Shown: piece by piece, positions 450 to 56,000 of the stretch
Numbering within the stretch: the stretch's first letter is position 1
How the letters are laid out: the number at the start of each line of letters is the position of its first letter
Assembly (NCBI GenBank): GCA_001600455.1
Contig: BCKC01000002.1
Coordinates: 5,607,682 to 5,671,681, forward strand
Origin: Endocalyx cinctus
Taxonomy: Eukaryota; Ascomycota; Sordariomycetes; Amphisphaeriales; Apiosporaceae
DNA: 64,000 nt
Reading direction: 5' to 3'
Notes under the pieces: model-generated
Database searches by the model: none
What the model was told of the DNA's origin: nothing
Seen by the model: only the letters and a program-made list of their open reading frames with translations
Position numbers and translations under genes: made by a program

Positions 450-2446
450 GGTTTCTCTACAGAGTCTTATCAAAATACTAATTTAGCCTGAGGAGTCAAA
501 ATGCATGTGGGAGGTCTGGAGTACATTACAATTAGGGGTTTGGGGGTGCGTGACAGCAAGTAACGGGAACAACTGCGATGGAGGGGGGAAAAAGAAACTA
601 GTTTTACGAAAGCAAGATCAAAGATGAGATCTCTTTGATTTTTTTTAAGTGTATGCGGTATTGCTTTCGATTATTATTTGCCGATACTGATATTTTTATT
701 ACTGACGGGGAAGCTTATTACTGATCTCGTAAGAATTACGAACTTAATCTCTCTTCACTGCCAATAAGTAAATATGATAAAAGTGGGATATCCCAGTCCA
801 GGTATGATTGCCCTTCCAAAGGTGGGTATACCCTTTCCAATGACAATTCTTGTAACTGTTCCTAGTAGCGATCATATTAATACTATGAGGATTATTACCG
901 AATTATACATTCTAATCCCCTATTCCTACATCATTTGATCGCTTTATGTTTCCTCTTTCCCCCGCTTCTTTATCGCCTTGACGTATCGGTCGAATCAACG
1001 CCGATTGTCAGATCTCCTCCGCATTTCCAATTTCATGGGGCCTTCGGTCATTTTCCCTCCACCGCTTATTACTCCGAAGTCCGGTGGTACGACATGCATA
1101 GTACATCTCTTTTTATCGATATTTTACCCATCTTCAGCACAGAATACACTTTATTTGTATTTAATGTAAACCTGACATGTAGTGAAACATTTTACTACTA
1201 TAACCTGGTAAGATTGGTAATAGTCTCACCTTGACGACCGAACCTAGCATACTCATACTATTAGCCGTTGACACGATGTTAGAAGATACCCAGGGCGAGA
1301 TAAAGTCAGGTGTCAGATAAGCCTTGGCTGGGGCTTGAACGAACCCGATTATTTTCATTTCAGTAAAATCCATTTGAGGTGAAAAATAGTCCTGATACCG
1401 AGACATCTACCTTGTGATGATATGTACATAATGAATTGAGACACCCTAATTCCTTCTAACTATATGTTTCCGAGGAAGTCCCTTTTTGAAGGCAGCCACG
1501 TATACAGTTACAGCAGACTCTATTTATTCAAGTTTCATTCAGAACATGATTTGGATTCATCTTCACTCGAAGTAGATAGTAAAACGGGGAGTATATGACT
1601 GAATACAGCTTTATGGATTGATTGCATTTTACCTATGATAAGAAGCGACTCAGGGACTTTACGCAACCATCTTATGGTCATTTACAACTACTAGAATTCC
1701 AATAGAGCTGTAATTTCTATAAAGCACTTGAGACATATGGAAAGACAGTATAGCCTGGAAAAGATAGCTAGGAGACATTATTTCAATAGGTCCTCTCCTG
1801 TTACGCGATCCTCTTTTAGGGTAAGACTGAAACGTATAGATTTAATAACCCGGTTTCAATAGGGTGAAGGTGACGTGAAACGGCGTCTTTATAGTATATC
1901 ATGATATAAAAGCTTCTATAAGAAATAGACATGATTTATATGCGATAATAGGAATTTGTATGACACTTGTGCTTACCATATGGCATAGACAATCCTACAA
2001 TTGGTGAAGTCCGTTGAAGATGAGGTCGAACAGGTGATTGGCCACATTCAAGCATTTGTGGGGGTTTGTCGGAATTTTTCTAATCCGGTAAAACCCCGAT
2101 GCTACGGATGACGAGTTTGCTGACACCTTGCTCCTCATATCTCTTCAACTTCTTCTCGTATTTAGGTTTTATCAAGATCATCTATGCGACAATACAGTAA
2201 ATTTTCGTGTCGCATAAATGAATAAGATCTTTTCTGGATAAAATCTCGTTTCAGTTAGATAAAATACCGCCGTTTACCTGCAGAGCCGGTCCCGGGATTC
2301 CAACCGAGTGGGGGAATTGGCCCCATATACGGATCAGTGGAAAACCCCGCAGAGGTGACAAACGTGCGCATTAAGCGACGTTGTCTAAGCCACACATATA
2401 CATAAAACCTATCTTGATCCCGAAAATTCCCATTAACAAGCCAATT
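450..2446. other. Intergenic, no gene seen
   Basis: About 2 kb of AT-rich DNA between the divergent sugar transporter and the FSH1-type hydrolase. Open frames here are short, have no recognisable domain, and mostly begin at non-ATG codons. It must hold both promoters. I see no tRNA, repeat array or transposon ends. Confidence 0.6.
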
Positions 2447-3265
2447 ATGGGTAGCTACGCCTATCAAGAAGAGGACATGTTTCTCCCGAGAATCCTCTGC
2501 TTACACGGCGGCGGCACCAATGCGCGCATTTTTCGATCTCAGTGCCGTGCGATCTCGCACATGCTAGAGTCCAAATTCCGGTTCGTCTATGCCGAAGCTC
2601 CGCACCTCTCCGACCCTGGTCCGGACGTCACCGTCGTGTACGGCGGAGAAGGTCCCTTCAAGCGCTGGCTGCGGTGGCTACCCGAGCACGCACCGATTCA
2701 AGACAGGGAGGCCATAGCCGCCATCGACGCGTCCGTCAAGTCCGCCATAGAGCGCGACAATGCCGCCGGCGGCGCCGGTTCGTGGGCCGGGATACTGGGG
2801 TTCAGCCAGGGCGCTAAGATCGCCGCCTCCATGCTATTCCGGCAGCAGGTGCGACGCAGCGGGAAGCTCGGCCCGAAGAACGGCGACGACGGCTTTTGGG
2901 AGCCCGAGTGGAAATTTGCCGTCGTCATGGCCGGCAGGACACCGCTGGTAAACCTCCTCGACCCGGACGTGTTCAGCTCCTCGCTGCTGCACAGCCCGTC
3001 CGAGTACACCCTGACGGCCGCCCCGGATATGATGGAGATGATGAACGGGACTCACATCCTGAGAATGCCGACCATCCACGTGCACGGCTTGACGGATCCC
3101 GGTTTGAAGCTCCACCAGCAGCTTTATGAAGATTACTGCGATAAGAAGACGTCAAAACTGATCGAATGGGGCGGATACCATCGCCTGCCATTCAAGAAGG
3201 TGGACGTACAGCCGATCGTGGATGCTATTTTGGAAGTCAGTTACGAGACGGGAGTTTTTGATTAA
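2447..3265 (+). CDS. FSH1-family serine hydrolase
   Basis: Intronless, 272 aa from the ATG at 2447; a second in-frame ATG at 2477 lies directly before the first beta strand and is an alternative start. Family signs are the oxyanion stretch LCLHGGGTNARIF, the nucleophile elbow GFSQG with Ser120, and the late HVHGLTDPGL and GGYHRLP stretches, which supply the likely acid and catalytic histidine. FSH1 (DUF341) proteins are alpha/beta hydrolases. Some act as thioesterases or esterases beside fungal polyketide genes (LovG type); others are stand-alone. No synthase lies next to this one, so the substrate is unknown. The gene is strikingly GC-rich against its AT-rich flanks. Confidence 0.88.
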   Translation: MGSYAYQEEDMFLPRILCLHGGGTNARIFRSQCRAISHMLESKFRFVYAEAPHLSDPGPDVTVVYGGEGPFKRWLRWLPEHAPIQDREAIAAIDASVKSAIERDNAAGGAGSWAGILGFSQGAKIAASMLFRQQVRRSGKLGPKNGDDGFWEPEWKFAVVMAGRTPLVNLLDPDVFSSSLLHSPSEYTLTAAPDMMEMMNGTHILRMPTIHVHGLTDPGLKLHQQLYEDYCDKKTSKLIEWGGYHRLPFKKVDVQPIVDAILEVSYETGVFD

Positions 3266-4552
3266 AACGCACGCGATGGACTTGCAGTTCCGGTTGCTAC
3301 TATTGTTGTCCCTTTTTTCTTGGTACTTTTGTCGGCTCACAATTATTTTGTTTCTTATTTTTCTTCCGTAACTAGAATTTCTTTTTAGTCGTTTTAAAGG
3401 ATATAGACACGAGATTAGAGGTATAAACCTCGGTAGAGGCCTACGTAGACTGCTTGAAAGCTTATAAGATATGTTCGAAACTCCTGTTATCATCGGTGAA
3501 GATCTGATACTTAGTGATACATCAGCTACTAGGGGGATGATACAGGTAGAAAACAAATCCGTTATTACCTATTTGGTTATAACGGTTTATATAGTCTCCA
3601 CTGTTCCTTTCTGACAGGGGAATATCACGATACCTTTGCTTATTATAACCCAGCAGCCAGCGCGGTCGCAGCGATAGACATAGAACGAAAGAATCCCACC
3701 GACCAAGGGTTACGCCATGGACAGCTATAATAATTACGTACCGACGTACATAACTACAACAGCAAATGAATAGAGGAGAATTAAAAAGTCGACATTTTCC
3801 ATGCTAATATTTACCCGCTGCCTCATCAAAGGTCAGTCACCGATCTAAGTTTACTATAAAATTCGTTGGTCACCAACCTAACCCAGCTACTATGCTACAC
3901 CTATATCTTCCCAAAAGTAGAGTTTGATGTGTTAATAAGGAGAATAAAACATCAAATTTACGAATTATCACTGCTTAGTATCTTTTCATTTGAATAAAAG
4001 TTAAGTCACCTGACATTGAAGAGAAATAATCTAAAATATGGGACTAATTCGTCCGATAGTATTACAATTATTGAGGAGTGGTTGGAAATTTACATCTCTT
4101 TTTGTCATTGGCGGTGAATCCACTGATTAATCTTAATGCTGTTGAATAGATATCTGTCTCTCAGTTAACTATGAACTTATGATTAACCAGTGTTTGCACC
4201 ATCCGTTTTTTGTCATGTACCTAGCAGTTTAATCTCTTGTCCATCTACACATATCCTGATACTGGTACCGATTAGAAAGCTTAGAGCCGGCTCCCTGAAA
4301 CTTAGGGACCTATTAACACTTTTACGTCGCGGGAACACAAGCTAGCATTATAATTCAATCATTAGGTCAATAATTCAGCTAATGAGTGTGACCGTACCAT
4401 TATTCAGGGCAATAGTGATTCACATTTTCTCCCCAAATGGCGACACTCAAATTTAAGCAAACGCAATGCAGCTTTATCTCTATACCTACAGAATAATATT
4501 CCTAAGAATCCCCCAATAACTCTTTAGTAGTTCCTCTCCAAATTCAACATCC
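3266..4552. other. Intergenic, no gene seen
   Basis: About 1.3 kb of AT-rich DNA between two plus-strand genes. Frames are short and show no codon-like bias or motif. It includes the 3' region of the hydrolase and the promoter of the following gene. Confidence 0.6.
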
Positions 4553-13372: not shown

Positions 13373-15124
13373 ATGTCCCAACCCGAAAATGAAAATGACT
13401 TCGTCTTCTACTCTCCCTCTGACCGTGGTCGAGATACTTATACTGAGTCCGCTGAAGATTGCTACCTCTCTACTTCACATGATAAGTATCGCTAATATTC
13501 AGTAATTAGCATTATCTTCCTTCATGGATACATGGGTCACCATATTCGTACTTGGACTCATGAGGGCAGCGCCTGTTGGCTTAAAAGTCTTCTTCCGGAT
13601 AGCCTTCCTTCTTGTCGAGTTATATCCCTAGGATACAATACAAAACCAATAGGGCTAGATTATTCTATACTCACAATGTCTGATCATGCAAGTGGATTGC
13701 TGGTCGACATTCGCCAAATACGTGCTGACGTAAGACCTCCCTATATGAAAAATGTAAGCACGAGAGCTTTGGTAACTCGGATCTAGGCTCATGAAAGACC
13801 GATTCTGTTCATTGCACATGACATTGGAGGTCTATTAGTTAAAGCTGTAGGTTATCCTGTAGAGTAATAATAATACTAGATAAATTAACTGTATACCAAA
13901 TACTGACGTGGGCACTTTTCATACACCATATCTAGATATTGATTGCAGCTTTATCTGAAGAAGTTCCTAAGAATCAGAACATCGCTCTATCGACAGTTGG
14001 AATCATCTTTTTGTCTACTCCCCACCGCGGATCCAAATTTTTCAACCATTTACGGAAAAGCCTCCTGGTCTGGAAAGTTATGGGAGCTTCAACTTCTTCA
14101 TCAATGATCAAGCAGTTACAACACGGGTCAGAATACCTTCGTGACCTATCCATTGCATTCAACAACCAGTTCCTGAAGAAAATCTCCAGCGTTAAGATCT
14201 TCTCTTTTTTTGAGACAACACCATCAAATATCATTTGTGGATTAGTGAGTGAATACTATTTATATATTTACTAATTAATTATGTCTGATTATATCAGGAC
14301 GTTTACTTACTGCTAGTCAAAAGACTGTGAACAGAGAAGATGCTATTCTTGGATTTACAGGGGAAGAAACGCTGCCGCTAGATGGGAAGCATGCCGACAT
14401 GACGAAGTTCGCCGGGCGAAATGATCATAATTACAGGCGACTGATTGCAGTCATTGATCCCATTGTCAATTCCATCTATATGAATGTATTGCGGCCCCTC
14501 GATGCCCCAAATACACATGACATGTTAGGGGCATCATCAGGTCCTCAACTGCAAGGGTCACAGCAACAAAACGTTCGTAGTGACGAGTCTCTACAGCGCC
14601 CCTCATCCCCATTCGCTACCATAGAGGTCGATATCCTCTTTGGCTTGACAAAGAAAAGAATGATTGCATATGTTGATTTAAACGCAACACAAAATTGGAT
14701 ACAGTCAGATCTCCTGCTGGAAAATGATATTGACGCTAACATACCTCATATCGATTTATATTTTTCACTAGGGGGAAAGAAGCTGCAAAATCGTCGTTTC
14801 GTCGTTTCCGGTGATCTTGTTTATCCTTTGATCCTGGGGGCCTCTCAGAACAGTCAGTCAGGAGTAGGGACAGATCACTCGTCTACACACAAGCCTCGAG
14901 CGGAATCGGGAAATGGACATGCTTCTCTCTCGGATTCCTTGGAAAGGTACCGCATTTCAAATTCATCTCCTTGGACTTCCAACGTGATATATCCACCAGG
15001 GAGGATTGGAGATAATGCGCAATGTGTAGCTGACCGTGTGTTTCAAAACACAAGAGATGCAGCCATGGAGAGTGAGCTCGGAGCAACCGAGGGCAAAGAT
15101 AATTCTGATGAATCATTAAAATAA
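13373..15124 (+). CDS. SERAC1-like alpha/beta-hydrolase protein with a degenerate retropepsin-like tail
   Basis: A five-exon model closes exactly: 13373-13427, 13503-13729, 13787-13846, 13936-14248 and 14298-15124, giving 493 aa. The first donor (GTCGAG) and fourth donor (GTGAAT) are weak, so the 5' end is uncertain. The N-terminal half follows the DUF676/SERAC1-like fold often found at the head of fungal NLRs: IIFLHGYMGH, then RPILFIAHDIGGLLVK, then VGIIFLSTPHRGS. The usual H-S-x-G-G nucleophile serine is Asp here. The tail has an aspartic-protease-like layout, IAYVDLNATQNWI followed later by YPLILGAS, where the catalytic D-T-G reads D-L-N. No NB-ARC or repeat domain follows. A catalytically dead recognition or scaffold protein is the best guess. 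Confidence 0.7.
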
Positions 15125-18304: not shown

Positions 18305-20371
18305 TTATTTTCCCTGAGGAGCAATCTGTAAACCGTCGACTGAACCGCCCTTCTGGATCCGGTAGCCCTCGAGGAAGATAATAATCGCAAAGACAAGCGA
18401 GGCAAATGAAACCAGGACCATTGGCTGCATGACAGCGACGACAATTTTCTTGCTGAGATCCACCATGTATCGATAAAAGGAGATATCAAATTTTTTCATC
18501 ATTCTAACTGTGAGAAGAAAGACAGAAACTAGTAGCGATAAGATCGTATAGAGAAACTTCGAGCCGCAAAATTGCGTGAAAATTGATGTTAAATATCTTT
18601 CACAGTGTACCCAGATATCAAGGGCACCTCTTTCACCAGACTGGAGGATTGTTACAAACGAAATTGTCATCTGAAGTGAAGCAAATAGTGTCGTTGGTGA
18701 GATTCTTTTCCCAAGAAATTTGATGCCCAGCAAGTCTCGTCTCAAATAATCCATCAGTACACGAGTAGCCCCATTCAAGGCGACGCCCCACATTGTAGCT
18801 TCGGTGATACTCATCATAGTTGACATCTCGAGGGCCGAGACCAATACCCAATATATCGAGAAATTCAGTGCTGCGGATAACAAAGGGATAGATTTGACAT
18901 GCCGAGTCTCATAGTAGGTAGATTCAGCATGTGTCTCGATCTGTACTGTTATTCGACCGTCACAACAACCACCATAGTAGCATCCTATACGCCCTATGGC
19001 TTCGGCTAGAGGCAGGGTCAGGGCTATGGCTTTCACGAGTGCGTCCTTGTGGTAAGTGTCCCCGAAGGTAGAGAGATATATAGTCAGAATCATAGGCGTC
19101 AATCCCCCTTGTAGCCATAAACCTCGCGATGCGCAGTCCATATGTCTAGCGGAATTTTTTGTTGGTCCTGCACAGCTTGAGGGTGATGTGCAGTTTCCCA
19201 AAGTCTCGTAGCTATGTATACTTTCACAGATAGCTGTATCAGTGCAGCTTTCCAAAGTTGCCCAATTTGCTACGGATGCGCAACTAGGCGGCTCTGTGCA
19301 ATCGACTGTCGCTGCTATCTTGTCCCCTTCAATGACGCAGCTGCCAAGTTGTGCTGAGCAAGTGAATGGCTCAGTGGCGTCTTTTATTATTTCATTCGAT
19401 GACAATTTCTTCGCGCCTAATATCGCGGGGATCTGACTAGCGCCGACTAAGCCGGCAATACCAACTTTCAACGCAAGTATTGCAATCTCAACGATCTCCT
19501 CTGGCCCCAGTTTCCTGCCCAGAGTTAGACTGTATAGCCATGCTATGGATACCTGAGAAGCAGTCCAAGAAAGTGCAACAATAATGGCGTATATGGATAT
19601 ACTAAAAGTCTGAAATAGTACAATCTTGGCTGATGTCTCGGATTCAAACTTGACAATCCCTAAGGACTCCACTTGCCGGTAAACGCAGTACACGAGATAT
19701 AACGTGTATATCACCAGAGGGCCAATATTCGCAAACATTCTCATCCTATTAGCACCGCTCACTATGATCATCCGAACGCACCACAATGTTGTGGGAATCC
19801 TGATAGTCAGGAGGAGCAATACATTGAGATACGTGGCGAATCTGATAAGTTTAGAACTCTTCGTCGTCCATCCGTGGATCTTCAATATGGCGATAAGGGT
19901 AGAAACAAGTTCGGTTGCTAACGCTCCATATATCACGTACAACTGTTGCCGTGGGGCCTGTATATGAATAATGCCAAGGAAGGCGGCAATTGAAAAGCCA
20001 TGATGAGCCGTATATAGGCTGGAGTACTCGAGACGAGGCGTTTCTCCGACCCAGAGAATGACTCGAGATCCGACGCATACTTGCTCAAGTATGGTATAAT
20101 CCGAAGAGGTGTCGAACAAGCGTGCCGCAGCTTCGCTTTTGAAGGCCGCGGTGGTGCAAATCGGAGTCGAGAAGAAGGTAATGAGCCACCCTAAAACAAA
20201 GGCGAAGTAAGGTTCAAATCGATGGCTTCGATCCTCAATCAGATATTGAAAGAATTTTGGGTTGATTTTAGATACAGCTACTTTTAGTAGCAGATTTATA
20301 CTGTTATAAAGAAAAATGCCCGCTAGCAAAGGTACTGCTGGCACAAGACCAGAGTACCCGGGTGTAACCAT
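18305..20371 (-). CDS. Membrane protein fusing a TLC-like domain, a Cys-repeat linker and a bacterial-type Lgt-like domain
   Basis: Single exon, 688 aa, ATG in strong context (accATGG). Residues 15-310 are hydrophobic and TLC-like, with paired histidines in LYTAHHGF (H123, H124) and EQVCVGSRVILW before them. Residues 338-413 form a hydrophilic linker with C-T-x4-C and C-x(11-12)-C spacing repeated three times (Cys 358, 364, 376, 382, 394, 400, 413). Residues 417-580 match prolipoprotein diacylglyceryl transferase: LWLQGGLTP, the signature GRIGCYYGGCCDGR (460-473), RHVKSIPLL, and NGATRVLMDYLRR with Arg537. Arg461 and Arg537 sit where Lgt has its essential arginines. More membrane helices follow. 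Bacterial Lgt moves diacylglycerol onto a lipobox cysteine; a lipid-transfer or lipid-modification role is inferred here. It shares a promoter region with an MFS exporter. Confidence 0.85.
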   Translation of the reverse strand: MVTPGYSGLVPAVPLLAGIFLYNSINLLLKVAVSKINPKFFQYLIEDRSHRFEPYFAFVLGWLITFFSTPICTTAAFKSEAAARLFDTSSDYTILEQVCVGSRVILWVGETPRLEYSSLYTAHHGFSIAAFLGIIHIQAPRQQLYVIYGALATELVSTLIAILKIHGWTTKSSKLIRFATYLNVLLLLTIRIPTTLWCVRMIIVSGANRMRMFANIGPLVIYTLYLVYCVYRQVESLGIVKFESETSAKIVLFQTFSISIYAIIVALSWTASQVSIAWLYSLTLGRKLGPEEIVEIAILALKVGIAGLVGASQIPAILGAKKLSSNEIIKDATEPFTCSAQLGSCVIEGDKIAATVDCTEPPSCASVANWATLESCTDTAICESIHSYETLGNCTSPSSCAGPTKNSARHMDCASRGLWLQGGLTPMILTIYLSTFGDTYHKDALVKAIALTLPLAEAIGRIGCYYGGCCDGRITVQIETHAESTYYETRHVKSIPLLSAALNFSIYWVLVSALEMSTMMSITEATMWGVALNGATRVLMDYLRRDLLGIKFLGKRISPTTLFASLQMTISFVTILQSGERGALDIWVHCERYLTSIFTQFCGSKFLYTILSLLVSVFLLTVRMMKKFDISFYRYMVDLSKKIVVAVMQPMVLVSFASLVFAIIIFLEGYRIQKGGSVDGLQIAPQGK

Positions 20372-20871: not shown

Positions 20872-22672
20872 ATGGAAGTCCATCAGCCCGTCGACAGTGA
20901 ACCATCAAGTGGCTTTACATTTAGGACTTCTCCAGCAGCGATAAAACTCATATACGGCTCAATATGTCTCCTGACCCTTCTAGAAAGCCTTGATGCCACC
21001 TCGATCGCCGTCGCCCTTCCAGTGAGTCCCTAAATAGTGCATATAAATTGTTTTGGAGATCTAAGCAAACGACGGATTTCATTGACCTTTTCTTTTTCAT
21101 GCGACTAGATCATCGCCGAAGACCTGGACGCCGGCTCAACCGCGACCTTCTCGCTCGGCACAGGCTTCCTACTAGCAAGCATCGTCTTTCAGCCGGTTTT
21201 GACAGAGTTCTCGCACGTGGCAGGGAGGAAACCTGCTTTTATCTCGGCCTTGACGCTATTCCTGATCGGCGCGGTAATTGCCGCCACGGGCCGGTCCGTG
21301 ACCCAGGTGTTAGTTGGCCGGACTATCCAGGGAGTAGGAGCTGCCGGACCGCTGGCGCTGTCTGTCGTCGTCATCACCGATCTGTTTCTCCTTCGCGAGC
21401 GGGCGAAACTTATTGGAGGATTAAACGCAGTTTGGTCAATTGGCAGCATTACTGGTCCCATTATTGGAGGCGCTTTTATTCGAGGGGCTTCTTGGGTGAG
21501 TCGTTTATTCTTCAAGTTAAATATGATTTCATCAAAAAAAAAAAAAAAAAAAAGACTTTGATTGATAACAGCGATAATCTAAGTTTTCCAATAAATAGCG
21601 GTGGATCTTTTGGATCAATCTACCGATCGGCATCCCTATTCTAGTCTTCATCTACTGGGTCCTCGGCTACGATAAGCCCGAAGGCACATTGATTAACAAC
21701 CTTCGAAAGGGTGATTGGGCCGGAGCGGCTCTCTTTTTCGTATCTGCTGTTTCTATTCTCTTACCTTTGATCTGGGGCGGTGTTGTGTATCCATGGCGCT
21801 CCTGGCAAACACTTTTCCCCTTGGTGCTCGGTGTAGTGTTGTTGGTGGTGTTATGCTGGCATCAAATTTATTACGCCAAGAGCCCAATCTTTCGACCTAG
21901 TGTTTTCTCTCAAGTGCCAGGAGCCATTGGACAAGTCGGTGCGCTCATTCACGGCATCCTTTTGTGGCTTCTTGTCTACTACATAGTCATATACTATCAG
22001 GGCGTCCGGGGTTACAGCGCTCTCATCAGCGGCATAGCCGCCCTACCCGAGACGCTCACGCTGGCGCCGATCGCCGTTATCTCTGGTATTCTCATTGGAA
22101 AGACGGGGAGGTACGCATGGGCGACGACTATCGGCTGGGCCCTCACCACGGTGGCCTTCGGGCTATTTATCTTAATGGATGAGATGAGCTCCCTCGTCGC
22201 ACTAGTTTTCATTAATCTCATCCCCGGCTTCGGACTGGGCATGCTGCTACCCGGAATATCCATGACGGTCCAAAATTCGGTTTCGAACAACGATGCAGGC
22301 CACGCTGTCGCCATCTTGGCACTACTAAGATCCACGGGGCAGTGTCTCGGCGTCGCCATCGGTACGGCGGTTTTTACAAACCAACTAAGCCCCGAGCTGT
22401 ATCTCGTTGGTGCTAGCGTGACAGCAAATGATGTGCTAAGTTTGATTGGTAGCTTTCAGGCAAATGATCACACGGACGACGTCATTACTGGAATAGTAAA
22501 AGCTGTAGTCGGCGCTTTAAGGGTGGTTTGGATTCTGGCCGCTCTTCTTTCGGGAATATGCCTTATTGGATTTTGCTTCTTGAATTATCACTACGACGGA
22601 AGACTTAGAGATTCAAATGATCACTCATCTGATGGAGAGAAGACTATGAACTCGACTGCTCAAGATGAGTAG
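20872..22672 (+). CDS. MFS drug/metabolite exporter, 14-TM DHA2-like
   Basis: Three exons in exact phase: 20872-21021, 21109-21495 and 21599-22672; 536 aa. Intron 2 (103 nt) contains a 21-base A-tract. Family motifs are LTLLESLDATSIAVALP in helix 1, GRTIQGVGAAGP, and the antiporter motif C in SIGSITGPIIGGAFI. RWIFWINLPIGIP at the exon 2/3 splice is characteristic of fungal 14-TM exporters of toxins and secondary metabolites. By family it is a plasma-membrane H+ antiporter that expels small molecules. The neighbour is the divergent TLC/Lgt fusion, so co-expression is plausible but not shown. Confidence 0.92.
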
Positions 22673-42354: not shown

Positions 42355-45300
42355 TCAATATACCACTTTCCATACTTTCAACTTCTTCACTATCCTGTTC
42401 ACCCCTAGCTTCTTACGAGCACTCTCGAGTAGATCTAGTGATATATACCGGTGGGGAGAATCCTGATCATACAATTGACTTTCTACCATAACCACATGTT
42501 CCAGAATATCAATGGCCTTTTGAGCTTGACCGTTAGCAAGGTATGCCGCTGCGAGCCCGTGTTCTGATATTAATCGAGAATTATCTTTTTCGTTTAAGGT
42601 CATTTTTTGTATTTCGACAACGTGTTCGAATATTTCAATTGCTTCTTTAATTCGTCTATCGTTAAGATATGCATATGCGAGCCCGTGTTCTGATGTTAAT
42701 CGAGAATTATCTTTTTCGTTTAAGGTCATTTTTTGTATTTCGACAACGTGTTCGAATATTTCAATTGCTTCTTTAATTCGTCTATCGTTAAGGTATGCCC
42801 TTGCGAGCTCGTGTTCTGATGCTAATCGAAAATTATCTTTTTCGTTTAAAGTCATTTTTTGTATTTCGACAACGTGTTCGAATATTTTAATTGCTTCTTT
42901 AATTCGTCCATCGTCAAGGTATGCCGCTGCGAGCCCGTGTTCTGATGCTAATCGAGAGGGATCGTTTTCCAAAAGCTGTTTTTTTATCCAGCTTTCTCTC
43001 TCTTCCAGATATCTGATAGCTTCCTTGAAACGCCTATCTGCATATAAGCATTTCCCAACGGAATAACACAGATGATATCGCTCATCAATCCCGTGTGCCT
43101 CATTTCGGTCGAGCAGTTGAAATGCATGTGTAAAGTAGGCTTGCCATATTGGGCGGTTGTTAAAATCATTAGAGGGAAAGCTTGTACTTAGATGCTTGAC
43201 AGCACTGATTGTTATCTCTTTTGTACGTGCCTGTTCTTGAATCCAGATTTTTGTTGCTAAATGCACAAGGCTGTGCATGTCGTACATGTCATCGACTCCA
43301 CGACTTTCCAAGAAAGCGTATCCAGAAAGGGTGCCAAGGGCTTTTTCCATTACCGCTTCTGATTCTATCCTCGGTAGCAACGATCGTGGGATAGCCTTCG
43401 GCTCGATGCATGAGATAAATGAAAGCAGATCGGCTGCATCGGGATTGGTTATCCGTATCTGTTCAAATGTGACGAGCCACGTTGTGGCTACCGCACTTTG
43501 CGCTTCGTGATAATGAGTATTATCTAGGAACTTTTCGCTCATAAGGCGAACCAAGTTCTCCTCGGTACCTCGTAGAAGTTGCAGATATTTTTTGATTGGT
43601 GAAGAATCATGCTTGAGGCTTTGATTGAGATACGCGGCAGCTTGCGTGATTGCCAATGGTAAATACGATAGCTCGTCTAGAAGCTCCATCGTCAATGCCG
43701 TATCCTGAAGCCACTGTTTGCGAACGACCAAGTTCCTTAAGAGATATCCAGCCTCTTGTGCGCTCATTTTGTTTAATTCGATCTGATCACTACTTGCTAC
43801 CGACTGTGCAAGCTCTGATGACCGTGTCGTAAAAACAGTTAAACCGGTCTCGTTCCGGGGTAAATAGTCGAATAGGCTAGATGGCCCCTTCAAGACCTCC
43901 TCGTCGTCCGCGTTGTCGATTATCAGTAGCCATTTACCTTTCCCTTCCGAGCTGAGGTAGTTTCGCACTGTTATCTTAGGGTCCTCTTTCTTATTATCGA
44001 TGCGTATGCCGAGTTTATTTGCGATATCAAGATAGGCTTTCTCGAAACTCTCTAAAGCATATGCTGGCACCCAGAAAATGGAGTATTCAGGTTGATTTTG
44101 TTTTACCCAGTACGCAAATTGGAGTACGACTTGGGTTTTTCCCATACCACCAAGCCCAACAATAGCGAGCGTCCGGCAATCATGGAAGAGAAAGAGCTTT
44201 TGTTGAAGAACTTGCATGATTTCATCTCGTCCAGTGAACTTCATATTTGGTAGAAACGGAATCAAAAGAGTTCGTGCTGTATCGGGATGAATAAGTATTT
44301 AATTCCAATTTGGAGATGTCACGGTTATACTAACTATTAGTTGATCCAGAAGGTTCGAACTTGGTAGTCTGCTGAGTCTCACAACCATTAAGACTGTCCA
44401 CGAATCTCTGAATATCTCGTTCCTTCCCCTGTAAATAGTTGTGGGTATGCGCCGATATCTTGCTGGTCATTTGCCAGTCGGATAAAGTAATATCTTCCAA
44501 CCCACGATCGACATTAAGCCTGTAGTATCCCCCCCCATCACCGTATCGATCTTCAAGCTTGTTTGCCACCGCTGTTGAGGTAGATGCCATTCTTTTCAAG
44601 GCTTTCAGAATGGATACTCTCGAATTATCGATCTTGACCACGTCTCCAAGGCCAGTCCCAATACTCAAGATTTGCAACTGGTCGCGGTCGGGGAACTGCT
44701 TTTTGGCTTCCTCGATGAGGACTTCGCATGGGTTGTTATACCCAAATCCTGCATCGATAAACTCAATATTTTCTCGTCCAAGTTCTATCGACTTGAAGAA
44801 TGTTGTCGCAGCCGAGGTCGCACGAGCAACCTGCCAAATAGTGCAGTGCTCGAAGGTTGTGGATGAGTCGTAGGTTGTAAGGAGAGTAGGGCGCGCGTCG
44901 ATGTTTACTTTTGTAATTGCCAGAACAACACTGCAAGATGTTAATATAAAATACCGTAACCTAGAATTATCGCAGATAATGTGATAACGTACGTCTTCGT
45001 ACATGTTGTGTCGCGCAACCGTAGATCCTCATGCGGACAGGTGTCGACAGTGGGCTTGCCCTGGCCTCTCTGGGTTACACATTCGAGTTCCGTACAGTTA
45101 TCTCTAACAACCTTTTTAACGGCAGCCTCGAGCGCTTTGGCAGAGAAGGCACCTTTCGGCGAAGGAATGAATGGTAATTTCGGTTTTGGAGCAAATGCGG
45201 CCTCCCCAACGTCCTCGTACGCTCGTATACACTGATCGACCGTCATTCTTAGTCTCCCAAGCATAATCGCAATGATCCTGTCAAGGTTGTTAGCTCCAAA

Positions 45301-46439: not shown

Positions 46440-47664
46440 AGTCATACTTCGTACGATAAACCGATGTCGACGTTTTCCAACCGGCAATGGACAGGTTTAG
46501 GCTTGGCGCTGAAATGTGTTTAGCGGAGGATTCAAATCGAATAACATTTTATTTCATCCCTGCAACGTGTCGGCAATGGTCGTCTGAAAATTCTGATTTG
46601 AGTCATCATGACGGAATGTGCAGGGCACCGGGATACGGTTGGTGTTGGTATTGTATGTTGCCAATCAATTGAATTTCGGGATGAGTGCCAGCTGTATTTC
46701 TCTCTTTGAGATGTTACGGGGAGAACGTAGTTTGGTGTACCATCTACTTAACTCGAACTTCGAGTGCTAATGATAGAAATAGCCATCATAGATGCGGGAG
46801 ATTCTATACCACTGGTTAAAGGCAAGCTCTCAGTAGGGATAATAACGCGCAAGAAATAAAACCTCATTAGGGCGACGAATATGGCGACGTAGATTTTAAA
46901 CAGGCTGGATTTCCCTGGTTTCTGTAATTTGATAGCGGTTTACTTACCTGTCCTGGTCACACGGAGCTTGTCTTCTATCTCATAAATTCGGCCGCCTTTG
47001 GTAGCAGAGGCTCAATTATTATGAGTAATAAGCACATGATACGTTTCATGGGTTCGATATTTGGATTGTCTCTCAGTCATATGCTGCCATTATAATCGTT
47101 ATGTTCCTTTAAAAGGACAAATTACTACATGATAAAATTAACGTGACCGGATGTGGATTGGTAGGCAGTAGGGTTGACCAAATCGGTCTTTCGGTTGGTT
47201 GGGTTTTCTCATCATCACATTTAGTATTCTCGAAATAGCTTGGAAAACTGAAGAAGTTTCGGGTTCAAAATATCAGTATTTCATCAACAGCAGGATTAAT
47301 CAATAAGTTGCCTTAGAGTCGCGAATTTCAAATATATCTTGAGTGATGAGTCGATTTCTATCCTGTGTTGCGAGTAAAATAGTACCTAATAATAATAATA
47401 ATTACCAGCAGTCATCTGAAAATTTACCTTGTGTTCTTGCTGATCTCACGCTAATGTCATCTCACTAATAGTGCTACGCGTTCCCCTAATCCACTGTGAG
47501 AGCCCGCTTATAACCCCTCAATCTTTGGCGCTAATTGCAGCTGATTGAGTGGATACTGGAAATGAGTATATCATAAATCTCTGCGCCGATGTCAGCAGCA
47601 ATCATGTAACTTCAATTATTACTTGCAAATTAGCATATTCACGAAATCAGCACTTCTACTAACA

Positions 47665-49375
47665 ATGGATCATTTCAAATCAGAAGCTTTCTCGTCCCAT
47701 GTGCGGGAATTGATGGACCAGAATCATGTCCCGGGTCTCGCGATTGCAGTAGTGCGGGATGATGAAACTGCTTCAATGGGGTATGGGCACGCTTCTGTGG
47801 AATCTTCGACGCCTTGTACCGGGAGCACCCTTTTCGACATTGCTTCGTCTGCCAAGTCATTGACTGCCGCAGCGGTCGGACTGTTAGTAGCAGATAATAA
47901 GTACCCTGAAATACAGTACGACGTCACTATGGCCAGTCTTCTGCCTGAGGATTTCGTCATGCCGAGTAGTGAATATACTCAAGGTGTTACCATCGATGAT
48001 GTTTTAAGCCATAGAACTGGCATGGCCAGGTATTTAGATATGCCCGATTTCTACATATATTTGACGATAATACTAAGTAACAGACGTTAGTCATGATTGC
48101 TCTTATATGAGCCCTCGCGCAGAACAACCAGACGACGCACGATCCATCACGAAGAATCTGCGTAACCTGACTGTTGCTGCCCCTTTGCGGTCAAGATTCT
48201 TGTATTGCAACATGATGTTTACTGTCGCCACCCATTTAGTCGAAGTAAAAACCCAGCAGCGCTTTTCACAGTTTCTCGAAGACCGCATTTTTCAGCCTCT
48301 CGGTATGGAGTCAACTAGTCTTCAGCCTACGAGTGCTCGAGAGAAAGGTCTTGGAGACCGTCTAGCTACAGGGTATCATTGGGACAAGGACTCCTCTGCG
48401 TATAGAGAAATACAGTCCCCGGACTGTCCCGAGGCCCAAGGTGCCGGTTCCATTATCTCGAGCGCGGACGATTTCATCCGATGGGTGAAATGCTTGATTC
48501 GTCGCGAGAAACCCGTCGATGAAAAAGTATACCAGGGGCTCATCCGGATGCGGAGTTTGGTAAATCCAGGCGGAAGGAGGTTAAGGCGCTTCACGTCCCC
48601 AGCCATATATGCTGCGGGGTTAGAGATATACTATTATCGTGGACATATGGTCGTGGGTCACGACGGTAACATACCCGGCTTCGGGAGTCGTTTTTTCTTC
48701 CTGCCAGACTCCAAGTTTGGAGCCGTCGTTATGGGTAATTCGGGTGGCGTGGGAACCGTCTCGAACGCCATCTGCCGACAACTTATCGACGCAGCGTTAG
48801 GGGTCCAAGAGGCAGAGGCCCGGCCCGAGAACAAATCTAAGAAGAACAAAGGGCCTACCGGTCCGGCTGTTCAGGGTGAAGTACCTATACGCCCAAAGAC
48901 GGAACAGGCGAGCCAAGAAAAAGATTCTGCCAAGGAAAATAAAAAGGGGGCAAAGAACGAGAAAAAAGCCAAACAGGAGCAGGCGAGACAGGCTGCGCCA
49001 GGTGGCGGAAATCAGCCGCCCAAAGCTAAGAAGCCACAGAAAGAGAAAAAAGCGCCGCCGCCACAAGAGATACCCCTCACGTCTTACGCTGGGAAATATC
49101 GACACCCCGGCTATCACTCGATGGTCGTTCAAATCCGAGACGACAAGCTCTTTATTGACGCTACGGATCGTTCGATGGGGTTCACTATGACTTTCGAGCA
49201 TGCCAGCGATCAGACGAAGTATATTGCCTATTTGTGTGACATGTTTGACGGTGGCGAGGATCCGGTCGATGCTGAGTTCGTAATAGAGGATGGTCGTGCG
49301 ATCAAAATGGGCTTGGACTTGGAGCCGGTGTTGAAAGAATTGATTTGGTTTGAATTTGACAGAGATTCGTCATAA
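47665..49375 (+). CDS. Serine beta-lactamase/PBP-like hydrolase with a Lys-rich insertion
   Basis: Two exons, 47665-48029 and 48091-49375, in phase; 549 aa. The class C beta-lactamase fold motifs are all present: S-x-x-K as SSAK (residues 61-64), Y-x-N as YCN (160-162), and HDG (312-314) in place of K-T-G. A linker of about 90 residues (362-450) is very rich in Lys, Glu and Gln (KNEKKAKQEQ, KKPQKEKKAPPP). It precedes a C-terminal beta-rich domain of lipocalin-like type (TSYAGKYRHPGY). Fungal relatives are esterases, amidases, LovD-like acyltransferases or D-stereospecific peptidases. There is no signal peptide, so it is cytosolic or peroxisomal. It converges on the NRPS with 630 bases between stops. 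Confidence 0.88.
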
Positions 49376-50006: not shown

Positions 50007-53000
50007 CTAAAAGTCCGGCGATAACGATCGAGGAGTTCCATCAGCAAACAAACCAAGCTGAAGTAGTAAAGTAGGGTTCTCCATAATGTCCTCAATGCTT
50101 AAGCTAAGTCCTAGTCGCTCCATATGAGCGGATAACAGCGACGCGCCAACCAGATCACCGCCGACGTCAAAGAATGACTGGCCATCTTCGACACGTGGGA
50201 TCATATCCAATCCGAGAGCTTGCGACCAGCATGCTCGAAGAGCCACCTTTATGTCCTCGGGGCAACATTGCGCTAGGGCCGCTTCCTCTGCCGTAGCTTC
50301 GGTGAGAAGTCCGTCGCAGCCGGGATAAGTAGCTCTAGGTAGCGAGGGCGAGAAAGAGCTAAGCTCCTTGGGGGAGGGTAGCGGCATGCCGACAGCCTGG
50401 TGGAACAAGACGATGGTTTCGCATAGCTTCGCGACCATTCGCTGAGCTTGCCGTTCGTTGATGACACCAGCCGCGAAGCTCAGCTCGATCTGCATGTTCG
50501 CACCGTTCGCCTTCGACGTGACGTGCACGTCGACATTGTCGACGTCGAGAAGGGAAGTTGCCTCTCCGTCGTGCATGCCGCGGCTGTGCATATCCTCTTC
50601 GTCATCCTCCTCGAAGTTGTGGTGATATACGACGGAGCCGGCGTAAGCCCAGGACGGCCACTCCGTGCACTCCCGAACGATCTCACGAGGTCCCATCTGC
50701 TCATATTCCATGCTGGCAAGGTGTTGAGCGTGAACGGCGGTCATGAGGTCACGAGCGGTCCATCCATCTTGGAAGGTGACACGGGCTGGTATGATGTTCA
50801 CGCAAGGACCGAAGACTTCCTCGTTACCGACCACGTTGCGACCGTGCGTCAGATTGCTGAAGACGACGTCGCCGCTGGCCGAAACGCGGGCGAGGAGGTA
50901 AGCCCACGCCGCCTTGAGCACGGTCGAGAAGGTGAAGTCGCAAGAAGGCAAGGAGGAGCGCGGTATCTCCCTCGCGACGCAGGAGCCCCGTCCGTGGCCC
51001 AGAGTAAGGCTCGTGCGCGGCTTCAGGGTCGTCATGGACGAACCCTTGAGCAAGTTGCTCCAGTACATCTTCGCGGCGTCCTTGTCGATGGTCGAGATCG
51101 CCCGCAGGTGCTGAGAGAAGCTGGCCGGCGATCTCTCTTCCGCCGGTGCGCGGTAGATCTGCTTGTCCTGGCAGTAGATGTCCTCGAAGGTTTTCCACAT
51201 CTTGAGAAGACTCATACCGTCGTGCTGAGCGTGAGACATGCGCACGACGATGCGGTACTCTTGCGTGAGAGTCTGGTGGATGATTGCGAAGCTCGTGAGG
51301 AGAGAACCGAAGCGGAATTCGTGCCCTTCGTCGTAGCGGCGGATGTTCTCGGTGCATTGATCCGCGCTGCTGTTTCTCGTGGTGAGGACGACGACGTCCA
51401 CTTTCGGCTCCTTCAAGACCACCTGAAGGAACTGGTTTTTGTGAGCGACGAATACGGTTCGAAGCATATCGAAGCGGGAAACGAGCTCGGTGAGGGCAGC
51501 ACGCATCTTGGGAATGTCTGGTGTACCCTTGCCGTCGAGAGTGTGGTATAGCATCATATCGTGTGAGGCGGTGTAGGTAAGAGATACCAGGCGGGCCTGG
51601 TGATCCGTAGTAGGAAGTACATCCTCGACGTCCTCCTTGTAGATACCGAGTTCAGGTAGTTCGGACCATATTTTCGACATGTCTGCACTAGGCGGGAGCA
51701 GGGAGAAGGGTTTGTACTCTTCAATCTCGGACACTTGCTCACCACCGAGTGTCTGTGAGACGGAGGCCATGTCTTTCAATTTAGGGTTCTTGAGGATGTC
51801 GGAAACAGACAGAGTGAGACCATGCTCCCTTGCGGAGCCGACCAATCGCATAGCCGTGATAGAGTCACCTCCTCTTCGGAAAAAGTTATCTTCTGTTCCG
51901 ATCTGCTCCGGCTCGACATCGAGGACTGAAGCCCACAGGGATTGAAGTTGTTGTTCCTTTCGAGTTGTCGGTTTGCATGATGAGGAGCTGGCTCCGAATT
52001 GATCGGTAGCAAGAGCCTGCCCCATCTCTCGGAGTCTTCGGCGGTCGGTTTTACCCGTGGCTCCAACCGGGAAGTTTTCCATTGGGATGAACATTGAAGG
52101 TATCATGTGTGGTGGTAAACGAGTGGCAAGTTTCTCTTCAATGCCGGTGGTAATATCGGTAGCGGCAGAGTTGACAGGCTCAATAAACGCCACCAACATC
52201 ATTGGCTCGCTCTGTTGGGGGATTGTAATTACTTCGACGATAACCTGTCGCACCTTGGATTCTAGAGATTCTTGCACGACGTGCTCGATTTCTCCTAGCT
52301 CCACTCGTTGACCATTAATCTTAATTTGTGTATCCTTACGGCCGACGAAAGTTAAGTTACCGTCCGCATCATTGTAGCGGACGAGATCACCGGTCCGATA
52401 TAATCTACCATGGCGCCCAGGGTGACCGTTAGCTCCCTTTACCAGCCAAGCTGGATCTTCAATAAACGATGCTGAGGTTTTGACGGCATCGCCAAGATAT
52501 CCGTTACCGACGAGGGGACCTTCTAACCATAGTTCGCCGACACTACCGACCGGTACTAATGACTGGCCGTCAATGTCGACTACCCAGGTGTTGAGGCCAA
52601 GGCCCTTGCCGATACTGCTCTTGGATCTTCCATGGGGGTCGACCGTCGTGATTGTTGCCGTGGGGGTGCATTCACTTGGACCGTAGGGGTTCTTGACAGT
52701 CACCAGAGTGGCCCATTCTTGTGCTGCATCCGGTACTTTCTCGCCACCAAGAACCAGGGTCTGGATTCGTTGAAGTGTTTCTTTCGGAAGCAAACGAGCG
52801 ACCGACGGGGTGACATCAACGTGAGTGCACTGCAATTGTTCGATAGAGCCGACTAAGTTGTTTACACGATCTTGATCCGATGGTATACACAAGCATGCAC
52901 CGATGGTGAGAGTATGTAGGAAGTTCGACCAGCTCACATCGAAAGCATAAGAGGCGAAATCATACACTCTTGAGGTCTCCATAAAACCGTGGGCGCTCTG

Positions 53001-56000
53001 TTGGTGCTTGATAGCACTAGAGTAGTTGGCGTGTGTGGCCAAGACTCCCTTAGGAGTACCTGTACTGCCAGAAGTAAACACGACGTAGAGTGTGCTATCT
53101 GGGTTGACGACCGGTAAAGGTGACTGGGCGTTGGGGAGTGTTAGGATATCCTCATCCACGACGTATACGATGGCTTCGGGTGCTAATCGAGTCGCGAGTT
53201 CTTGGTTGGCCGATGAGCACAGCATAATATCGGCCTTGGTTTGGTTGACAATTGTACGCAGACGATCTTCAGGCTGACCTGCGTCCATGGCTACGGAGGC
53301 ACCGCCAGCTTTCATCACAGCCAGCATTGCCACTGGCGTCCACTTAGATTTCTCGAAACATAGTGGCACTTCTGTCGTCTCACTGCCAATGCCGAACTCA
53401 ACCAGATGTTGAGCCAGGCGAGTTGATAGTTCATCCAATTGGCTGTATGTCCAGTTGCCGTCCCATGCGCACACGGCAGGGGCGTCTGGTTTCCTCAGAG
53501 CTGCTTGGGTTATCAAATCGTGCACGCAGCGACGGTCAGTCTCGGGGACAGAACCGTTCCACGTCCAGATGTCATTGAGGTCTTCATCGCTAATAAGAGG
53601 TAGGCTGCTAGAGGCGATCTCGCGTTCACTCATAAGCTTAGAAATGTTCTTCTGCAGGAGTGATAATACCCGGCTTGCTTGATCTTGAGAAAGGCAGACA
53701 TCGGAGTATTCAAGTTCAACTTCCAAAAATTCTGAAGCGTAGGTGATTCCGACAGCAATTTCATACTATTAATCTGTTAGCCGATCCGGTTTCTATTTTA
53801 AAAAATTACAACTTAAGACTTACTTCAGTAGGGTCTAGTCCATCGAGAGACTCGAACATTAGTCCAAGTTCATTTTCGTCGTCCGACTCGTCCAAATTTT
53901 GGAATGAGACGATAGAGTTGAAAAGCGGCCTTCCCGCAGGAAGATCGAGCTCATGCTGGATTCCAGCTAGAGAACAGTGTTGGTAGCTCAGGTCTTGAAT
54001 TGTCTGATCGTACAATTTTCGCACGAAGTCTTGTCCTGAGATCTTGGAGTCGCTGTGTGGCTGTTTCACGTCGGCGCGACAGATCATCATATTCGCGTAG
54101 GCGCCAATTGATTTTTCAATGCCAGGAATGGGGATATCTCGTCCAGATGATAGGTATCCGAAGCATACTGATTCGGTTCGGGCATAGGCTGCCAAAGTAT
54201 GTGCCCAGGCAGCTTGTAAGAGGCTTGCAGGTGTTACGGATTGGGCCGCACAGAATTTTTGGACTTGCGAAAACGCTGGTCCCTCAAGTACCATGGTGGA
54301 GATGGATGTCACATTCGTAGACTTGGTGATGCCAGATAAGTACGGGAAATGGCAAGGCTCTACTCCAGCCAGTTTTGTTGTCCAGTAGGCCATCTTCTCT
54401 GCAGTGGTCGTGGCCTTCAGTTTTCGGACCAGGCTACTACTCGTAGTCATCAGGTCAAACTTATCAAGCGAACCAGTATACGCATCGCTCCAGTTCTGAG
54501 TGAGTATACTGGAAGAAGCACCATCCGTGATCGAGTGACTCATTTCGACAAGGCAGTAAATAGTGTTGTCAGGTGTCTCGCATAAAGAGATCCGGTGAGG
54601 TGGACGCATTTGTTGATAGTCAACCGGTGGTAGTTGTTGGAGTGACTCCAGCGCGGCATCCTTGCTATCACTGTGAAGAACTATCATATCCGGCTCATGG
54701 TTCTTCAAGACAACTTGGTTAAAAGCAGAAGCGTTGTCCATTCCTCCGATGAAAACACTGCGAAGGGAGGGTTGATGCGCGACAACGAGCTTCCAGGCTT
54801 CGCAGAGATTCTCAAGGTTGATGGGTTTAGAGTCACGCGAGCTGATCTCATATAGTTGGCTGGTATTGTACATCTCCGGTTGGCGAGCTTGACTCAAGAG
54901 AATACCATCTACCGTAGGTGTACAGGGCCAAACCTCTTCAATTGATCCGGACTGGTTTGAGGATTCGATTAAGGGAACGACACGACCATGGAAGTCATCC
55001 AGAGTGGGATAGTCAAGAGCGACCAGCTCGTAGTCGCAAAGAGTGCGTGCCGGAGAAGCGCTGAGAGAAACAAGCTCTTCGCAGATGGACTTCAGCGAAG
55101 CACCAACTCTTGCTATCCATTGTTCGATGAGGCCTTGGTGAGCGATATGACGGTTGAAGGAAAATTCATATTGAGCTTGTTGATTGTCAAGCGACACTTC
55201 CACATTAAATAGCGATGAAACCGGAACAGCTGGTCCCACTTCCGAAACTCCAGGTAGATCAATGTCTTCGAAAAGAGCTTCGTCGCCTTCGAGCTGTTGG
55301 AACTGGCCGTGATAGTTGAAGGTAACTTCTGTGGTCGTGTTATGAGCTGCAAAGGCCTCCTTACCAGCGGGGTTGAGATACCTCGAGGCAAAATAGGCCC
55401 ACCCGTTGGCAGGTAGTTGGCGACGGGCATCCTTGACTAGTCTAACGGTGTTAATGATGTTATTAGCTACATCTCGGGCCACGTGGATGGGGCTCATGGT
55501 AGTGAACCATCCGACGGTCCGAGATGGGTCAGCATCCACACTCCACGACTCGCGGCCGTGACCTTCGCTGAAGATAGTCAGGCCTTGTCGCTTAGGGAAT
55601 GTTTGGAGGAATGCTTCCCAGATGGCTGAAAGTAGAAGGTCAACCGGGACCGTATTCATGGCATTGTTAGCTGCGTCGAGCAAGAGAGAAGTGGTCTGCT
55701 GGTCGATCTCTACGACCCGAATGAGATGGTCGCTGGTGCTGTTGGGAGTTTCAGGGCTGAATCCCCAAAACTCGAGATCATTGCTGACGTCTTTGGTGGA
55801 AAGTACATTCCTGCAACGCTCAAAGTTAGAAACTACTTATTTTTCGAAACTCTATAGAATGAGGATTACTTACTCAGGGTTTAGTTCTGAAGAGGTAGCG
55901 TGGGATATTTGCATCTTGTTCCACGTCTGAAAGGGGAGGCTGTTCTGGATGGAGTTACCAGAGAGAATGGTTTCAAGGTCATCTAAGACGATGCGCCACG

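Follow-up and report, generated by a model that had tools for sequence, protein, structure and literature searches.

A fungal gene encoding a predicted TLC-like barrel fused to a complete Lgt-family module

The fungus Endocalyx cinctus encodes, in one chain, a predicted N-terminal helical barrel and a complete module homologous to Lgt, the prolipoprotein diacylglyceryl transferase that is regarded as a bacterial enzyme and drug target. The fusion gene lies in a stretch of 64,000 nucleotides, called here the window (GenBank assembly GCA_001600455.1, contig BCKC01000002.1, positions 5,607,682 to 5,671,681 of the forward strand), where it occupies 18305..20371 on the minus strand as a single uninterrupted frame of 688 amino acids from ATG to stop, as had been described in the original prediction made from the sequence. 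Our preferred reading, to which we assign a probability of about 0.4, is that the product is a fungal polytopic lipid-transferring enzyme in which a TLC-like barrel (residues 1-240) is followed by an inverted Lgt module (residues 253-581), with both cavities on the cytosolic side.

The Lgt module (seven helices; 18629..19615, minus strand) is homologous over its whole length to bacterial Lgt. LGT (PF01790) is the sole Pfam family in the fusion protein and was scored at 38.5 bits on residues 410-562, above the curated gathering cut-off of 24.9 bits. With hhalign, residues 253-581 aligned to columns 8 to 262 of a 266-column bacterial Lgt profile, a span that takes in the complete seven-helix core, with probabilities of 98.7 when the fusion protein was used as master and 98.9 when a relative, P0003, was used (E-values for a single comparison, 4e-16 and 1.5e-17). 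Controls with P0003 as master gave probabilities of 1.0 (reversed), 0.1 (an MFS protein) and 0.1 (TLC). The aligned region includes the first transmembrane helix (TM1), where Y261 (19589..19591, minus strand) stands at E. coli Y26 in alignment A6, as well as TM2 with its GA. By this alignment the module starts near residue 253 rather than at residue 417, as first proposed, and helices 260-284 and 290-317 are part of it rather than of the barrel. The claim of an Lgt-family module of bacterial kinship was otherwise borne out.

Other searches returned less. The NCBIfam Lgt equivalog cut-off was missed by far (31.1 versus 334 bits). Five of the six members of alignment A3 match Pfam LGT, the sixth being without that region. 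No PDB chain was reached by HMMER using the fungal-only Lgt alignment; the mixed alignment A5, containing three fungal rows among ten, reached E. coli Lgt (5azb) at 1.1e-32. A profile of the whole protein retrieved from the PDB only PCNA rows at E-values of 0.46 and above, and neither AlphaFold model had a match at E <= 0.001 in plain Foldseek, a check suggested with the original prediction.

The fusion of both parts in one chain is real and not due to chance, because an N-terminal part and LGT also share a single frame in four relatives (P0002-P0005, 494 to 645 amino acids). A fifth relative, P0006, carries the N-terminal part alone, and the Lgt part is carried by proteins of Bimuria novae-zelandiae (147 amino acids) and Zarea fungicola (342 amino acids). 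Note that the remaining relatives are called fungal by their grouping with these two proteins, and that the fungal and bacterial labels of the P rows are our own reading. A tree of 51 rows places all seven fungal rows on one side of a branch supported at 100/99; within this clade, P0005 and the Zarea protein form one group and the fusion protein, the Bimuria protein and P0002-P0004 form the other. Positions kept in five sequences (the fusion protein and P0002-P0005) number 54 of 240 in the barrel, 13 of 92 in residues 241-332 and 26 of 188 in residues 413-600. The linker and tail have zero kept positions, a count that tells little due to nearly all columns being gapped.

The linker is a cysteine-rich, net acidic insertion (residues 333-412; 19136..19375, minus strand) with cysteines at 338, 345, 358, 364, 376, 382, 394 and 400. 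It is present as predicted; however, it does not lie between the domains but interrupts the Lgt module, in its TM2-TM3 loop and next to the active site. It has no counterpart in P0002-P0004 and is replaced by a different insert in P0005. Cysteines 358/376/394 and 364/382/400 are spaced by exactly 18 residues. No claim of a tandem repeat is made: shuffled sequences reached the autocorrelation value in 1510 of 20000 trials, and TRF found nothing. The lack of this linker in the relatives might suggest an artefact (bacterial contamination, two genes taken as one, or an unspliced intron), which we judge highly improbable. Codons 317-420 are without a GTNNG donor, and the linker was rejected as an intron on this ground; two in-frame intron candidates outside the linker fall within stretches common to the relatives. 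The same fusion in four relatives and the support for a single fungal clade also argue against an artefact, as does the setting of the gene. The genome comprises 44.76 Mb in 15 contigs, and the window, which spans 5.61-5.67 Mb on a contig of 5.91 Mb, holds neighbours of fungal type. A six-frame search of the genome gave an LGT match at one place only (41.5 bits), and the fusion protein likewise matched its own genome at one place at E <= 10.

The N-terminal part (19652..20371, minus strand) is proposed, with low confidence, to adopt a TLC-type barrel fold of seven helices. AlphaFold models of this part, which are of low confidence and were built on six sequences, had ceramide synthase and TMEM120 as their best fold matches. 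All of the top 14 rows were one or the other, and the next row was 4 Z units lower; no ELOVL or HACD chain was among the 50 listed rows, which carries no weight either way. Membership of the TLC family by sequence was rejected. Residues 1-240 gave no Pfam match to TLC (PF03798) and no profile match to the PDB, the hhalign probability against TLC was 0.3 (controls, 0.0-0.7), and five TLC proteins were ranked by HMMER between 20th and 479th of 542 rows, behind decoys. NCBIfam gave one chance row (E 0.031) for the N-terminal rows. The TLC-like domain of the original prediction therefore persists as a predicted fold, with no sequence match.

According to the available text of PMC11919693, CerS6 has seven helices and a cavity that opens to the cytoplasm and is shut at the lumen by the TM6-TM7 loop, with a pair at His211/His212 and Asp242 located 30 residues after His212. 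In the fusion protein, a candidate acyl-accepting pair, H123-H124 (20000..20005, minus strand), and E154 (19910..19912, minus strand), 30 residues past H124, are invariant in six of six sequences. From the fold, the spacing and a non-significant hhalign alignment, we infer that H123-H124 may be equivalent to His211/His212; E154 would likewise correspond to Asp242. In a comparison with the Lag1p motif of a His pair and two Asp, made on this same non-significant alignment, H123-H124 would take the place of the His pair; L151 and E154 occupy the positions where the spacing would put the two Asp, and no Asp is found at the Asp239 spacing. The His pair follows an Arg by ten residues in the fusion protein and by nine in CerS6 (same source, as available). 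An alternative is that the N-terminal part is some other helical barrel (ELOVL, HACD or an unrelated bundle). This is favored by the lack of any TLC match in the sequence tests, by the dependence of the models on six sequences and by the available part of PMC11919693, which ascribes a comparable six-helix barrel to ELOVL7 and HACD4; nevertheless, the unbroken run of ceramide synthase and TMEM120 rows, with the gap that follows it, makes this alternative improbable.

The loop charges of the fungal-type family are inverted relative to bacterial Lgt, an observation that is new here. Charge was taken as K+R minus D+E over three catalytic-side and three opposite loops, using E. coli-numbered borders of our own choice. 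Bacterial rows were drawn from 16 of 80 loci, E. coli and four of seven bacterial-type P rows; the fungal-type rows were six (P0006, P0007 and P0008 are not in the alignment). The opposite, cytoplasmic side was the more positive in 21 of 21 bacterial rows (17/17, plus 4/4 rows aligned together with the fungi), with net charges of +4 to +10 versus -4 to +1 on the catalytic side. This agrees with E. coli Lgt, for which the available text of PMC4728403 gives a negative periplasmic face, a positive cytoplasmic face and an active site that faces outward. With most of the inserts left out, all six fungal-type rows were reversed, the catalytic side carrying +1 to +8 and the opposite side -3. For whole loops including inserts, counted on 11 rows, five of the six were still reversed (+2 to +10 versus -3). 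The fusion protein itself then ties at -3 versus -3 because its linker is acidic, which weighs against our reading; its K+R count is still 14 versus 3. Over the full length, the loops alternate as for an N-lumenal protein, with a hand-summed K+R of 21 cytosolic versus 4 lumenal, where the linker loop supplies 7 of the 21 and also 12 D+E.

A cytosol-facing Lgt active site is predicted from these inverted charges together with the odd-helix barrel in front of the module. The C-terminus of the barrel was taken as cytosolic because the CerS6 cavity opens to the cytoplasm and the TM6-TM7 loop is at the lumen. The barrel would then start in the lumen and end in the cytosol, and the Lgt module, because seven helices precede it, would be inserted upside down compared with bacteria, leaving both cavities open to the cytosol.

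The motifs GRIGCYYGGCCDGR, QGG and RHVKSIP were found at the positions given in the original prediction, and both key arginines are kept (R461 for E. coli R143; R537, 18761..18763, minus strand, for R239). RHVKSIP is no conserved motif of Lgt, since it occupies the place of the bacterial HPxQLY and the relatives differ there. In the signature GRIGCYYGGCCDG (residues 460-472; 18956..18994, minus strand), which contains R461, C464 replaces N146 and C469 replaces E151. Other E. coli residues that are kept include Y26 (Y261), G99 (G417), G145 and R246 (R544); those changed include H103 (Q421; 19109..19111, minus strand), Y235 (N533), E243 (D541) and, judged by eye from the alignment, E202 (S499). 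As a test for an Lgt enzyme, then, R143, R239, R246 and Y26 are kept, and H103, E151 and Y235 are not. N is found at Y235 in the fusion protein, P0002-P0005, P0007 and P0009, and Y or F in all six bacterial-type rows covering the site. Among the E. coli Lgt variants in the available part of PMC4728403, H103A/N/Q/R/Y, R143A/E/K, E151A/Q, E243A/Q/R and Y235F/L/S fail, Y235T and E202A/L are partly active and E202Q is active.

Some bacterial Lgts (from Acidobacteriota, Aminicenantes, Nitrospirota and Desulfobacterota) resemble the fungal module in having a GRxGCxxxGCC signature (“GCC type”) and a residue other than His at H103. They differ in being stand-alone proteins with positive cytoplasmic loops, mostly with HPxQLY, and with an aromatic residue at Y235 in the rows covering it; QGG, as in the fusion protein, occurs in 3 of 20 loci. 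None of the 20 loci inspected has His at H103 (Q in 3, Y in 14, S in 3), and in 13 of the 20 genomes the GCC-type copy is the sole LGT match. This count covers 20 of 80 loci, mostly picked for long contigs, with coordinates matched to loci by hand. Judged from these sequences, the H103 change in the fungal site is not decisive because the GCC-type loci show it too, often in the only LGT match of a genome. Additional weaker LGT-family matches (42 to 117 bits) are present in six of the 20 genomes (G004, G005, G006, G007, G018 and G019).

The main rival to an active enzyme is that both modules are lipid-binding pseudo-enzymes, serving as a sensor, scaffold or scramblase that keeps its folds and polar residues. 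We consider it a serious explanation, although an unlikely one. It is favored by the replacement of E. coli Lgt Y235, E151, E202, N146 and HPxQ, and by the close fold match of the barrel to TMEM120A. TMEM120A binds CoA and is not known to carry out a reaction. Conversely, R143, R239, R246, Y26 and the barrel HH are invariant in the rows covering them, and, given the GCC-type loci, the absence of H103 and E151 does not mark an enzyme as dead.

If the fusion protein is an enzyme, its Lgt site, which has both arginines but an altered donor pocket with N, S and C in place of Y235, E202 and E151, respectively, would draw a glycerolipid out of the cytosolic leaflet and move diacylglyceryl to a thiol or similar nucleophile. 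The His pair of the barrel would accept an acyl group from acyl-CoA, destined for this acceptor or a different one, and the enzyme would sit in an endomembrane, outside the classical secreted-lipoprotein pathway. A more specific proposal, which we regard as doubtful, is a one-chain, cytosol-facing counterpart of Lgt and Lnt: diacylglyceryl would be placed on a cysteine-like thiol and the barrel would N-acylate the same acceptor from acyl-CoA, the product in fungi being a cysteine lipid or lipid-anchored protein with three acyl chains. Under this proposal, the cysteine array by the active site of the E. cinctus protein could itself be an acceptor.

LspA (PF01252) and the Lnt N-terminal domain (PF20154) had no match in a six-frame search of the genome, made without intron modelling; control searches for these domains gave matches in 10 and 7 of 14 genomes, respectively. 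Because the genome is without a match to either, a role in the secreted-lipoprotein pathway appears unlikely. A fungal profile run against 199 genomes of one bacterial phylum matched 124 of them at E <= 0.001, the best match being a locus designated L100 (E 1.8e-14). A common ancestor of the fungal Lgt module and true lipoprotein Lgts is probable because L100 has the GCC signature and adjoins a signal peptidase II gene, with an IleRS-like end also adjoining. This suggested ancestry, together with the tied charges of the fusion protein when the linker is counted, would suit a bacterial-type lipoprotein diacylglyceryl transferase acting on secreted fungal proteins in the endoplasmic reticulum lumen. 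We consider that explanation very unlikely, as it is opposed by the lack of LspA and Lnt matches, by a charge polarity that would place the active site in the cytosol and by the altered acceptor-side and donor-pocket residues.

The tree confirmed the fungal rows as a clade in the comparison with bacterial Lgt that had been suggested; it did not provide a firm bacterial sister. The fungal branch (length 2.02) joins a single long-branch row only (81/52), and no donor lineage is claimed. The bacterial loci in the tree were 19 of 80 from L011-L090, 15 of 15 from L100-L114, one of six from L093-L098 (five were dropped for failing the motif match), L091 and L092. The other rows were E. coli, six of seven bacterial-type P rows (P0013 omitted) and the seven fungal rows; P0006 and P0008 are omitted. 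L091 contains a bacterial frame of 665 amino acids (2127-4124, minus strand) joining PEMT, PAP2_3 and LGT domains. It resembles the fungal fusion in having LGT C-terminal to lipid-enzyme domains in one chain, but its partner domains are different and its long branch falls in another part of the tree.

Beyond the Lgt module, hydropathy and a low-confidence model suggest C-terminal helices in residues 586-675 (18347..18616, minus strand); P0002 ends ahead of this stretch. A Pfam scan of the window gave no lead on function from the gene neighbours. HET-domain genes lie on the low side, with an open frame of 281 amino acids without a Pfam match at 14279-15124 (plus strand). A pair of frames pointing away from the fusion gene lies about 0.6 kb from it, at 20994-22672 (plus strand); the first is without a Pfam match and the second, at 21599-22672, has a match to MFS_1. 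Further off are an NB-ARC/TPR gene and NRPS genes. At 42355-45028 (minus strand), a patatin match below threshold adjoins the NB-ARC and TPR frame, resembling a fungal NLR-type gene. Three neighbouring NRPS frames with short gaps (50007-61803, minus strand), between which AMP-binding, Condensation and PP-binding are spread, are accompanied by a beta-lactamase-like gene (47566-49375, plus strand).

In the open-licence literature, no TLC-Lgt fusion was found besides one sentence of a 2013 paper, which in its available part describes a Fusarium graminearum gene with transmembrane and prolipoprotein diacylglyceryl transferase domains and says nothing there on TLC, topology or function. The word “undescribed” in the original prediction needs qualifying by this earlier mention. 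Compared by description and with homology assumed, the E. cinctus gene differs from that gene (FGSG_06124) in having one open frame. If our reading is correct, the fusion protein would clearly illustrate how membrane topology can be inverted by fusion to an odd number of helices, and would point to a lipid chemistry at the cytosolic face of fungal membranes that is not described in the open-licence literature found. Such a fungal family would combine a fully retained Lgt core, flipped in the membrane, with a barrel resembling that of ceramide synthases.
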